Virus record (IMG/VR): IMGVR_UViG_3300022900_000064
Span: 1-25,077 of that record
Strand: one strand, 5' to 3'
DNA from: a virus
DNA length: 25,077 bases
This document shows positions 2,492 to 24,590 of the stretch, piece by piece; the first letter of the stretch is position 1; the number at the start of each line of letters is the position of its first letter. Made by a program: the position numbers and the translations under genes. Below the pieces are notes generated by a model. It had not been told where the DNA came from. It did no database searches and saw only the letters and a list, made by a program, of their open reading frames with translations.

Positions 2492-4198
2492 ATGAGTTAC
2501 ATACTAGGATTATCATGTGGATATCATGATTCTGCAGCTGCTTTAATTAAAGATGGAAAAGTATTGGGTGCATGTGAAGAAGAAAGATTCACAGGTATCA
2601 AACACGATTCATCCTTCCCTACCAATACTATCAATTGGTTATATAAAGAATTCAATGTAGATGGTAGAGAAATTACCGATGTTGTATTCTACGATAATCC
2701 TAAATTAAAATTAGATAGAATTGAGAAATCAACTAAACGTGGTCCTAAATCAGAAAAAGAACATCGTTTAGAAATCATCCAACGTAATAAAGAAAAGTTC
2801 GAAGAAATCGAACAACAGATACTTGATATAACTCATCCTTATGTAGATATTGAGTATGGTGACCATCATTTATCTCACGTTGCATATTCTTACTTTACAT
2901 CTCCCTTCCAAAAGGCATCTATTCTTTCAGTAGATGGTGTAGGAGAGTGGGAAACAACTTCTCTATACTATGGAGAAGGAAATAAATTATTCCCGCTACA
3001 ATCGATTAATTTCCCACATTCATTGGGGATGTTATATTCTGCTTTTACTGCCTTTCTTGGATTTAAACCAAACGAAGGTGAGTATAAAGTAATGGGATTG
3101 GCTCCTTATGGAAATCACGAAACTTATTTAAAACAATTTCAGAAACTTTACACTACTACCAAAGATGGTGGTTTTGAATTGGATATGAAATACTTTACAT
3201 ACGATTGGTCTGATGACCATATGTTTAATGAGAAGTTAGGTTCTTTATTTGGATTGCCAAATAGATTTCCAGAAGAAGAACTTACACAAGAACATAAAGA
3301 TTTAGCAGCAACTTTACAACATCAATACGAATTTCTTTTATTTCGTTTGATTGATAAGTTATACGTATCACGTTCCAATCATAGCTTATGTTTAAGTGGT
3401 GGATGTGCATACAACGGAACTGCTAATGGAAAAATCTTAGAGAAATCTTTATACAAACAATTATGGATTCCATCAGCACCATCTGATGCTGGTTCTGCTA
3501 TTGGTTGTGCATTAGAATTCTTTTATAGAACCAATCCTAACTCACCACGAATTGATAATGTTAATCCTTACTTAGGTCCTTCTTATTCTAAAGAAGATAT
3601 TGAATCTGCATTGAAAGAAATGGAGAAAGATGTTTATGGTGTTTATAAAATTGATTCTGAATTAATTCCTATCATCTCTCATCAAATTGTTGAAGGTAAT
3701 GTAATTGGTTGGTTCGAAGGTAAAATGGAATTTGGTTCTCGTGCATTAGGTAATCGTTCTATACTTGCAAATCCATGTGACCCACAAATGAAGGCAAGAG
3801 TAAATCGTGTAATTAAAAAACGTGAAGGGTTCAGACCTTTTGCACCAATGGTAAAGTTAGAAGAACAAACTCGTTATTTCGATTACGATAAAATAGTTCC
3901 TTATATGAACCAAGTGGTAAAGGTAAAAGAAGAACATCAAAAGTATCTTCCAGCGATTACTCACGTAGATGGTTCTGCAAGAATACAATCAGTATCTAAT
4001 CATCACCATAGAAGAATGTATAAGTTATTACAACAACTCGAAAAGGATAATGGTTATCCAATGGTTCTTAACACTTCATTCAACTTGAAAGACCAGACGA
4101 TGGTATTAGACCCACTAACGGCTATTAAAACTTTCTTAGATTGTGAAATGGATACCTTAGTTCTTGGTAATTATATCGTAAAGAAGAAGATTCGTTAA
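2492..4198 (+). CDS. Carbamoyltransferase, NodU/CmcH/TobZ family
   Basis: A full-length 568-residue O-carbamoyltransferase. The family transfers a carbamoyl group from carbamoyl phosphate to a hydroxyl acceptor through a carbamoyl-adenylate made with ATP. The N-terminal ASKHA/Kae1-like domain (about 1-345) begins ILGLSCGYHDSAAALI, has the EEERFTGIKHD segment, the metal-binding HHLSH at 125-129, SVDGVGEWE at 146-153 and LSGGCAYNG at 301-309. The C-terminal domain (about 355-568) has GWFEGKMEFGSRALGNRSI at 406-424, FRPFAP at 447-452 and LNTSFN at 526-531. No key motif is missing. It has its own late-type promoter and is alone in its transcription unit. Relatives in marine phages have been linked to carbamoylation of 5-hydroxymethylcytosine in phage DNA; small molecules or glycans are the alternative acceptors, and the sequence does not decide between them. 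Confidence 0.93.
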   Translation: MSYILGLSCGYHDSAAALIKDGKVLGACEEERFTGIKHDSSFPTNTINWLYKEFNVDGREITDVVFYDNPKLKLDRIEKSTKRGPKSEKEHRLEIIQRNKEKFEEIEQQILDITHPYVDIEYGDHHLSHVAYSYFTSPFQKASILSVDGVGEWETTSLYYGEGNKLFPLQSINFPHSLGMLYSAFTAFLGFKPNEGEYKVMGLAPYGNHETYLKQFQKLYTTTKDGGFELDMKYFTYDWSDDHMFNEKLGSLFGLPNRFPEEELTQEHKDLAATLQHQYEFLLFRLIDKLYVSRSNHSLCLSGGCAYNGTANGKILEKSLYKQLWIPSAPSDAGSAIGCALEFFYRTNPNSPRIDNVNPYLGPSYSKEDIESALKEMEKDVYGVYKIDSELIPIISHQIVEGNVIGWFEGKMEFGSRALGNRSILANPCDPQMKARVNRVIKKREGFRPFAPMVKLEEQTRYFDYDKIVPYMNQVVKVKEEHQKYLPAITHVDGSARIQSVSNHHHRRMYKLLQQLEKDNGYPMVLNTSFNLKDQTMVLDPLTAIKTFLDCEMDTLVLGNYIVKKKIR

Positions 4199-4204
4199 CA
4201 TTCC

Positions 4205-4233
4205 CTTAACATTACTTAACCTTTTCTTAACAT
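4205..4233 (+). promoter_or_regulatory. Three phased CTTAAC repeats, Pho-box-like operator
   Basis: CTTAACAT (4205-4212), CTTAACCT (4215-4222) and CTTAACAT (4226-4233) recur at 10- and 11-base steps, one helical turn, in the 64-base gap before the secreted-protein gene. Each unit fits the (C/T)TTAA(C/T) core of Pho boxes known from cyanobacteria, where tandem units bind the PhoB-type response regulator. A weak -7-like TACTTATA follows at 4239-4246. The match by eye is good; recognition by a Bacteroidota PhoB is inference. Confidence 0.5.
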
Positions 4234-4262
4234 TGGAATACTTATAATAAAGAAGATTTATT

Positions 4263-4577
4263 ATGAGAAAATTAACTACACTATTATTTCTTCTAATCTC
4301 AACAGCACTTTTCTCACAAGAGATAGAAGTAATCAAAGAAAAAATTAAAGTAAACGATGGAATCCAAAAGGGTACCTTAATTTACAATGGAACCAAGTAC
4401 GTACAAGATGGTATTTGGAAATCGGATTATGCGAAAGCAAAATACGATATGGGAAAATTAGTTTGGTATCAACCGAAAGATGATAAACGATATACTTATT
4501 CTTACATAGAGATGGAACAACTCCGTAGAAAGGTTCAACGTTTAGAAACACGTTTAGCATCTAATGATAAACCATAG
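4263..4577 (+). CDS. Small secreted protein with C-terminal coiled coil
   Basis: A 104-residue protein with a clear signal peptide: basic MRK, hydrophobic core about 5-17, and cleavage likely after ALFSQ or nearby, a pattern typical of flavobacterial secreted proteins. No lipobox Cys is present. The mature part has a β-rich region with a DGIWKSDYAKAKYDMGKLVW pattern (about 50-69) and a helical charged end (about 80-99, EMEQLRRKVQRLETRL) likely to oligomerise. It is preceded by phased CTTAAC repeats rather than the late motif and followed by a terminator, so it is a monocistronic gene with its own control. A periplasmic role such as exclusion of other phages or envelope modification is possible, but nothing identifies it. 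Confidence 0.75.
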   Translation: MRKLTTLLFLLISTALFSQEIEVIKEKIKVNDGIQKGTLIYNGTKYVQDGIWKSDYAKAKYDMGKLVWYQPKDDKRYTYSYIEMEQLRRKVQRLETRLASNDKP

Positions 4578-4600: not shown

Positions 4601-4628
4601 AAAACCCTCCCAATACGGAGGGTTTTTT
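4601..4628 (+). terminator. Intrinsic terminator after the secreted-protein gene
   Basis: ACCCTCC (4604-4610) and GGAGGGT (4617-4623) form a seven-base GC-rich stem around the loop CAATAC, extended by A-T pairs, and run into six Ts (4623-4628). It is the strongest GC-rich hairpin nearby in an AT-rich genome and separates the secreted-protein gene from the tail block. Confidence 0.9.
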
Positions 4629-4635
4629 GTTTTAC

Positions 4636-4645
4636 TATATTTATA
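4636..4645 (+). promoter_or_regulatory. Candidate phage late promoter (TATATTTATA), copy 2
   Basis: Exact TATATTTATA eight bases after the terminator T-run and 22 bases before the ATG at 4668. It would start the long tail/baseplate transcription unit. Confidence 0.65.
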
Positions 4646-23488: not shown

Positions 23489-24061
23489 TTGAGTTTACTC
23501 ATAAATCGTTCTAAAAAATGGGGGTATATTCACATACCTAAGACAGGTGGTACATCAATATCATCTATCTTACATAATGTAGACTATACCGAAGATATCA
23601 TTGTACATGATTCAATTCGTGTATTTAATGATGTAAAAGATTATTTTATTTTCACCATTGTCAGAAATCCTTTTACTCGTATTGCTTCGGCATACGAACA
23701 TGAAAAACGAAAAGGTAGACATGATTATAATTTTTACAATTTTTTAAAAAATTCGAGTGGAAACGAATTAGTTCTTTTACCCCAAAGTTATTATATTAAC
23801 GCGGGTCAATCTAAAGACAAAAAAGTATCTTTCGTTGGAAGATACGAAACATACGAAAAAGATGTATCTTACATCTTTGATAAAATTGGAGTTACTTCTC
23901 CAATTCCGCACTTAAACCGAAACCCACTTTACGAAAAACAACCAAATCTAAAACAAGAGAAATACTACAAGTATTTTTATTCAGAGGAATGGATGAAAGA
24001 TTGGGTACGAGAAAGGTACGAAAATGATTTCAAAATTTTTAACTATGGCATGGACATATAA
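23489..24061 (+). CDS. Sulfotransferase (PAPS-dependent)
   Basis: A 190-residue protein of the sulfotransferase fold, which moves sulfate from PAPS to a hydroxyl or amino group, usually of a carbohydrate. HIPKTGGTSI at 15-24 is the 5'-phosphosulfate-binding loop, with Lys18 as the expected catalytic residue; IVRNPFTRIASAYEH at 57-71 is the 3'-phosphate-binding motif (Arg59, Ser67); FVGRYETYEKD at 115-125 and the YENDFKIFNY end are also typical. It is short for the family but the core motifs are all present. No ATG precedes the first motif, so TTG at 23489 is the probable start, giving MSLLINRSKKWGYIHIPK; there is no clear ribosome binding site, hence low expression or coupling to the 60-residue gene 11 bases upstream. 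The 3' end overlaps the next gene by 17 bases. Acceptor unknown; host surface polysaccharide is a reasonable guess. Confidence 0.85.
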   Translation: MSLLINRSKKWGYIHIPKTGGTSISSILHNVDYTEDIIVHDSIRVFNDVKDYFIFTIVRNPFTRIASAYEHEKRKGRHDYNFYNFLKNSSGNELVLLPQSYYINAGQSKDKKVSFVGRYETYEKDVSYIFDKIGVTSPIPHLNRNPLYEKQPNLKQEKYYKYFYSEEWMKDWVRERYENDFKIFNYGMDI

Positions 24062-24470
24062 TGGAAGTGTGATAACAGAATTAGCTGATATGCCAGAAGG
24101 TACTATTGGGTTTATTTACAAAATCACAAATGTAGAAACTGGTGAATATTACGTTGGAAAGAAAAACGTATTATCAGTTAGAAAAAGAAAGTTTGGTAAA
24201 AAAGAAATTGCTGCACTTACTGATAAACGAGTAAAACATTGGGAGATGGTTACCAAAGAGTCAGATTGGAAAACTTATCGTTCTTCTAATGATACAGTAA
24301 AAAACTGGCCGATGGATAATTCTAAATTAGAAATTCTTCGTTTTTGTTCTTCCAAAAAATCCCTAACTTACTATGAATTACAAGAACAATTCGCACATGA
24401 TGTTCTTGGGGATGAATTGGCACTAAATGATAATTTATTAGGAAAGTTTTTCCGAAAAGATTTGGTATAA
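24045..24470 (+). CDS. GIY-YIG-like nuclease family protein
   Basis: A 141-residue protein from the ATG at 24045 (MAWTYNGSV); an in-frame ATG at 24024 would add seven residues but lies deeper in the sulfotransferase. Residues 22-40 carry GFIYKITNVETGEYYVGKK, matching the GIY-YIG core, though the first half reads FIY and the second YYVG. SDWKTYRSSNDTVKNW at 73-88 corresponds to the W-x-Y-x-x-S block common in phage homing endonucleases, and Glu112 in TYYELQEQF is a candidate metal ligand. It could be a free-standing homing endonuclease like T4 Seg proteins, or a resident nuclease; the domain is short and lacks an obvious separate DNA-binding region. It overlaps the sulfotransferase stop, so the pair may travel together. 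Confidence 0.75.
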   Translation: MAWTYNGSVITELADMPEGTIGFIYKITNVETGEYYVGKKNVLSVRKRKFGKKEIAALTDKRVKHWEMVTKESDWKTYRSSNDTVKNWPMDNSKLEILRFCSSKKSLTYYELQEQFAHDVLGDELALNDNLLGKFFRKDLV

Positions 24471-24484
24471 CGAATTATTTTTCG

Positions 24485-24494
24485 TATATTTGTA
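24485..24494 (+). promoter_or_regulatory. Variant of the late motif (TATATTTGTA)
   Basis: Differs from the six exact copies at one position (G for A) and lies 14 bases after the GIY-YIG stop, 106 bases before the next start codon. It may be a weak or decayed late promoter. Downstream, AAAGTG (24515-24520) can pair with CACTTT (24531-24536). Confidence 0.35.
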
Positions 24495-24547
24495 TATTAA
24501 AGTGTTATTTAAGAAAAGTGTAATATAATGCACTTTCACTAAAAAGA

Positions 24548-24579
24548 TTTGGAATATTCAAATAAATTCTGTATCTTTG
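24548..24579 (+). promoter_or_regulatory. Host-type (Bacteroidota sigma-A) promoter before the primase gene
   Basis: TTTGG at 24548-24552 and TATCTTTG at 24572-24579, with 20 bases between TTG and the -7 element, the same spacing and same -7 octamer as the promoter at 720-751. Transcription would begin about 24585-24588, about 12-15 bases before the primase ATG at 24600. Confidence 0.82.
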
Positions 24580-24590
24580 TTTCAAACAAA
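24576..24590. repeat. 7-bp palindrome over the -7 element and start site
   Basis: TTTGTTT (24576-24582), one base, then AAACAAA (24584-24590) form a perfect inverted repeat that includes the TTTG of the -7 element and the expected start site. The single central base makes a hairpin unlikely, so if it is functional it is a protein-binding site. Confidence 0.4.

Follow-up and report, generated by a model that had tools for sequence, protein, structure and literature searches.

Does a phage gene for a small secreted protein stand behind sites for the phosphate regulator of its host? The question was raised by the window, a 25,077-base IMG/VR virus record with T4-like baseplate genes, in which a tandem array precedes such a gene. 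Host Pho boxes in phages are already known from cyanophages, where they lie before pstS of P-SSM2 and S-PM2d genes bound by host PhoB; the cyanobacterial Pho unit, CTTAACCT or PyTTAAPyPy(T/A), comprises 8 bases with a 3-base linker (PMC1906773, PMC10976474). Predicted phage Pho boxes were not always bound by PhoB in a cyanophage study and are unreliable without binding tests (PMC10976474).

Array and late box upstream of the secreted-protein gene

The gene (4263..4577, + strand) encodes a protein of 104 aa with a probable signal peptide (...LFSQE) and follows a Nol-like carbamoyltransferase gene (2492..4198, +), which has its own late box at 2466. Four TTAAC units precede it on the same strand, starting at 4195, 4206, 4216 and 4227, with steps of 11, 10 and 11 bases. 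Unit 1 (GTTAACAT, 4194..4201, +) shares bases with the carbamoyltransferase stop codon; its aligned counterparts are GATAACAT in L241 and GTTAACAT in L243. Units 2 (CTTAACAT, 4205..4212, +), 3 (CTTAACCT, 4215..4222, +, at the 10-base step) and 4 (CTTAACAT, 4226..4233, +) carry CTTAAC at 4205, 4215 and 4226, with steps of 10 and 11. The first-pass annotation had claimed these three CTTAAC units, and all are present; GTTAAC at 4194, 11 bases upstream of the CTTAAC at 4205 and overlapping the same stop codon, is a fourth. The array is real and larger than first reported.

To gauge chance occurrence, 1000 random sequences as long as the window were generated with a second-order Markov model. Neither the triple CTTAAC nor the quadruple TTAAC at the observed steps was obtained (0/1000 for each), and any exact 6-mer occurred thrice at steps of 10 and 11 in 2.3% of the sequences. 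The actual window has a single triple of this kind, the CTTAAC array, in agreement with its earlier description as the sole array of its kind there.

The phage late box, TATATTTATA, precedes structural genes in the window, with six gene-upstream copies; in a 100-kb relative, 13 of 16 copies sit 13–50 bases before a gene. The secreted-protein gene had been said to lack this motif, which does not hold, since a variant one base off the consensus, ATACTTATAAT, lies downstream of the array at 4238-4248 (+). Relatives have ATATTTATAAT or TATATTTATAAT in its place, at equal spacing. Through this variant the gene belongs to the phage late promoter class, with its box 13–50 bases before the gene. The gene's own terminator, also claimed previously, was found as an intrinsic terminator at 4601-4626 (+); the ordinary late box beyond it (TATTTATA, part of TATATTTATA; 4638..4645, +), included for comparison, belongs to the next gene.

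The promoter is a composite of array and late box, and is not separate from the late class. An ordinary late promoter alone was rejected, since the other late promoters of the phage, examined in the window and in the 100-kb relative, are without the array. A Bacteroidota -33/-7 promoter was rejected because the housekeeping -7 box TAnnTTTG, present before the gene at 781, is missing upstream of 4263. In T4-type late promoters, structural and late genes are preceded by an AT-rich -10-like box with no -35 element, and the composite promoter resembles them in both respects. However, their box is TATAAATA, whereas the window phage has TATATTTATA, one copy of it with an upstream array.

In E. coli and elsewhere among bacteria, a PhoB box consists of direct repeats of 11 nt that lie some 10 bp before the -10 (PMC1906773, PMC4415409). 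Such an operator has at least two tandem direct repeats at 10-11-base steps in this position, and the four units at steps 11/10/11 have that form. Unit 4 ends at 4233 and TATAAT (4243-4248, +) starts at 4243, 9 bases past it, a spacing that is conserved. The likeness includes 7 conserved and 4 variable bases arranged head-to-tail; the array differs from the E. coli type in its sequence, TTAACATT, in having usually three to four units and not two, and in using a phage late box as the promoter box.

Conservation in phages and occurrence at host phosphate genes

Conservation in phage relatives had been proposed as a test of the array, and it was observed in 8/8 close relatives. An array-blind protein search yielded 40 viral loci with 28 distinct upstream regions, of which 27 have a forward array and 27 a late box, the exception being L554. 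The array-to-late-box spacing is usually fixed, the distance from unit 4 to the late box being constant across most relatives, and conservation reaches relatives at about 30–40% protein identity. In a 101-kb relative the only triple array precedes the secreted-protein gene. The 40-locus scan itself used a peptide pattern only, while members of the profile were partly gathered with a DNA pattern.

This protein-blind pattern, array plus late box, identified 22 viral contigs, in 21 of which it stands before members of the same protein family. It demands two TAAC units, and conservation was therefore judged only on the protein-based set and the 8 close relatives. The 84 phage units collected yield CTTAACATT; TTAACATT itself is conserved across them, with a TAAC core required at collection. 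In the remaining one of the 22 contigs (L285:1155-1187), the composite promoter precedes a different ORF of 35 aa (MYIPKLKKAYKHKFLKK...), a case that L320 resembles. Of four related contigs searched, three also carry phoH.

Arrays of 2–5 TTAAC units were also seen before many small genes in other flavophages (L012, L014, L049, L050, L054, L055, L067, L046 and L019). TAnnTTTG often follows about 15 bases past the last unit, the layout of host pstS promoters, and the small genes have no evident phosphate role.

TAnnTTTG boxes are typical of Bacteroidota, and their occurrence in the window, one preceding the gene at 781 and others near 24485 and 24573, makes a Bacteroidota host likely. Judged from sequence, the host is probably flavobacterial and marine. 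The baseplate wedge protein is closest to those of Microcystis phage Mel-JY01 (42%), an uncultured phage and immuto-group Flavobacterium phages (37.5%). A cyanobacterial host was considered for the Microcystis phage match and judged less likely, given the TAnnTTTG promoters, the Bacteroidota-like signal peptide and the relatives of the protein in Flavobacteriaceae hosts. The array partly fits the cyanobacterial PyTTAAPyPyT. Elsewhere in the window, two 39-base direct repeats 87 bases apart (24455-24580), located at and after the end of a GIY-YIG endonuclease gene, each end in a TAnnTTTG-type box (TATATTTGT, TATCTTTGT). A sulfotransferase-family gene lies at 23489-24061; its product and the carbamoyltransferase are possible modifiers of glycans or small molecules.

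The presence of similar arrays at host Pho genes, the other test named in the first-pass annotation, was evaluated in Flavobacteriaceae, taken as the host group. A matrix built from the 84 phage units only was applied unchanged to 250 bases upstream of genes, and a tandem pair was considered significant at p <= 0.02 against 50 shuffles. Tandem motifs were found upstream of 9/15 pstS and 13/29 phosphate-selective porin (Porin_O_P) genes, compared with 1/30 for gyrB (Fisher p = 4.8e-5 for pstS and 1.6e-4 for porins, several porin promoters being closely related, so that the counts are not fully independent). The host and phage promoters share the motif and have nearly equal geometry: host pairs step by 11 bases as the phage units do, and the distance from the last TTAAC is about 15 bases to the host -7 box versus 16 to the phage TATAAT. 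The motif is missing from several pstS promoters and from most of the PF05787 (PhoX-type) set, which showed no enrichment (2/27) and is probably for the most part not true phosphate-regulated PhoX.

Across 60 whole Flavobacteriaceae genomes, TAACATTNNNNTAACATT occurred 76 times versus 16 for its reversed control. Twenty-eight of the 76 sites have a phosphate porin, pstS or a host relative of the phage protein no more than 8 kb away, where about 0.5% was expected; 48 are away from these reference phosphate genes. When triple CTTAAC was sought widely across genomes, the matches were for the most part simple repeats in organisms of many phyla, with no direct bearing on the question.

For Bacteroidota, a PhoB-type regulator has been described together with target genes similar in kind to those seen here. 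PhoB of B. fragilis binds the pstC promoter (PMC3547664), and in the F. johnsoniae PhoBR cluster a TonB receptor and a lipoprotein rise by 8-10 log2 on phosphate depletion (PMC8115612). A search of passages from both papers gave no Bacteroidota Pho-box consensus. No report of such a consensus, or of Pho boxes in phages of Bacteroidota, was found in the literature searched. We propose TTAACATT at 11-base steps as a candidate Pho-box motif for Flavobacteriaceae.

The secreted protein and its host relatives

The AlphaFold model of the 104-aa protein has five strands and a C-terminal helix, and is confident for residues 27-101 (mean pLDDT 86). A PDB fold search with this model gave no significant match among solved structures, and neither Pfam nor PHROGs provided a family. 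The profile of the phage family matched proteins in 40 of 120 Flavobacteriaceae genomes, and the closest host relatives are small secreted proteins encoded in a phosphate locus. Of the 30 host loci inspected, 18 had a gene for a phosphate porin or for the phosphate permease PHO4 within 1.5 kb.

The relationship was recovered in both directions by reciprocal profiles, the phage profile finding the host family among 3215 host ORFs and the host profile recovering the phage family from 1368 phage ORFs. Mature proteins without signal peptides are weakly related (hhalign probability 94%), and the window's own protein was reached by the host profile only with the signal peptide included. The phage protein is a distant relative of the small secreted protein of the host phosphate locus. 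The divergent arrangement with PHO4 or a phosphate porin was not found in the phage: the gene follows the carbamoyltransferase gene, and neither was identified beside it.

In three genomes the host locus has the order array, small CarboxypepD_reg protein, then TonB receptor and lipoprotein in either order, followed by the small secreted protein, encoded on the opposite strand, a porin (in 2/3) and PHO4. It resembles the F. johnsoniae PhoBR cluster, the identity of the genes being deduced from order and type (PMC8115612).

The motif preceded the host small gene at 27 of 30 loci (L457-L486), with reversed polarity; read as TAACATT, this array adjoins the TATATTTG box of the gene. The phage, pstS and porin arrays, unlike this one, point toward their gene. 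Given the reversed polarity, control of the host gene may differ from that of the phage gene, for example with repression in the host where the phage copy is activated. Reversed PhoP sites are known at repressed Bacillus promoters, and the polarity at the host small gene would fit this pattern.

A conserved element, TTAGTTTTTGTCGACT, was observed between the small gene and the porin in L449:1080-1300, L434, L450, L451, L455, L456, L468 and other porin-PHO4 loci. It is followed by a terminator-like hairpin with a variable stem, and its sequence complements the 5' end predicted for the porin mRNA (GCGACAAAAACTAA). Rfam gave no match for the element, whose appearance suggests an antisense small RNA belonging to the phosphate locus.

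Predicted phosphate control and rival explanations

The Pho-box reading put forward in the first-pass annotation is supported by the array being kept in relatives, by the motif shared with host pstS and porin promoters and by the location of the host relatives in a phosphate locus. We consider it likely that the array is a Pho box, that is, a set of predicted PhoB-type sites of the probable Bacteroidota host that would control, late in infection, a phage secreted protein of the phosphate-locus type.

Other origins of the array were weighed against this reading. A phage-encoded regulator timing one late gene, with a convergent likeness to Pho boxes or a borrowed specificity, would fit the occurrence of one array per phage in the relatives, its coupling to the phage late box and the similar arrays that serve many small genes in a different group of flavophages. 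However, the motif recurs with near-equal geometry at host pstS and phosphate-porin promoters, and also beside the host relatives of the gene, away from any phage context, and we regard such a regulator as unlikely. The OmpR/PhoB family as a whole uses direct repeats at 11-base steps, so that the sites might belong to another host member of it, one responding to a different envelope or ion signal and also controlling some phosphate genes. The 48 of 76 host sites that are not near reference phosphate genes, and the PF05787 promoters, most of which are without the motif, are compatible with this. The motif is enriched at pstS, at phosphate porins and in the PHO4 locus, and that locus resembles the published phosphate-responsive PhoBR cluster (PMC8115612), both of which speak against such a regulator; the chance that another regulator is involved appears small.

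A structural or generic upstream element acting without a regulator, through curved DNA or contact with the polymerase alpha subunit, would account for an array that is AT-rich, helically phased and always adjacent to the late box. It would leave unexplained why the phage's other late promoters are without an array, why TTAACATT itself is conserved (a TAAC core having been required at collection) and why gyrB promoters do not have the motif, and is highly improbable. Single TTAAC sites are numerous in this AT-rich phage genome, which could favour a chance or low-complexity repeat without function. Chance was nevertheless rejected, with 0/1000 random sequences and conservation down to about 30–40% protein identity, and its remaining probability is negligible.

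Under the preferred Pho-box reading, the scheme that we infer has PhoB binding, phosphate control, host identity and protein function all as predictions. The array would offer a PhoB-type response regulator four sites in head-to-tail order, at a fixed distance of about ten bases before the phage late box. In an infected cell short of phosphate, phosphorylated host PhoB would bind the array and aid the late-phase polymerase at the adjacent late box, raising transcription of this one gene. The protein would then be produced late in infection, in greater amount under phosphate scarcity. After export, it would probably tune phosphate uptake or envelope function, as its host relative may.

The likeness to cyanophage Pho boxes is that of a phage gene behind tandem sites matching the host phosphate regulator. 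Here, in contrast to cyanophages, the host is probably a member of Bacteroidota, the array, a predicted PhoB target, is coupled to a late box, and the gene encodes a small secreted protein and not pstS or phoA.

Nutrient-responsive phage genes are known mainly from cyanophages. If the Pho-box reading is true, phage use of host phosphate sensing would extend to Bacteroidota, which are major marine heterotrophs, and a late promoter gated by a host regulator would represent a new design. The undescribed secreted protein family would be common to phages and a host phosphate locus, and its role in phosphate uptake is directly testable. It is about an even prospect that Bacteroidota phages have a phosphate-response layer of their own, in which a PhoB-array late promoter ties the late output of a captured phosphate-locus secreted protein to the phosphate state of the cell, and that flavophages more widely use Pho-type arrays for many of their genes.
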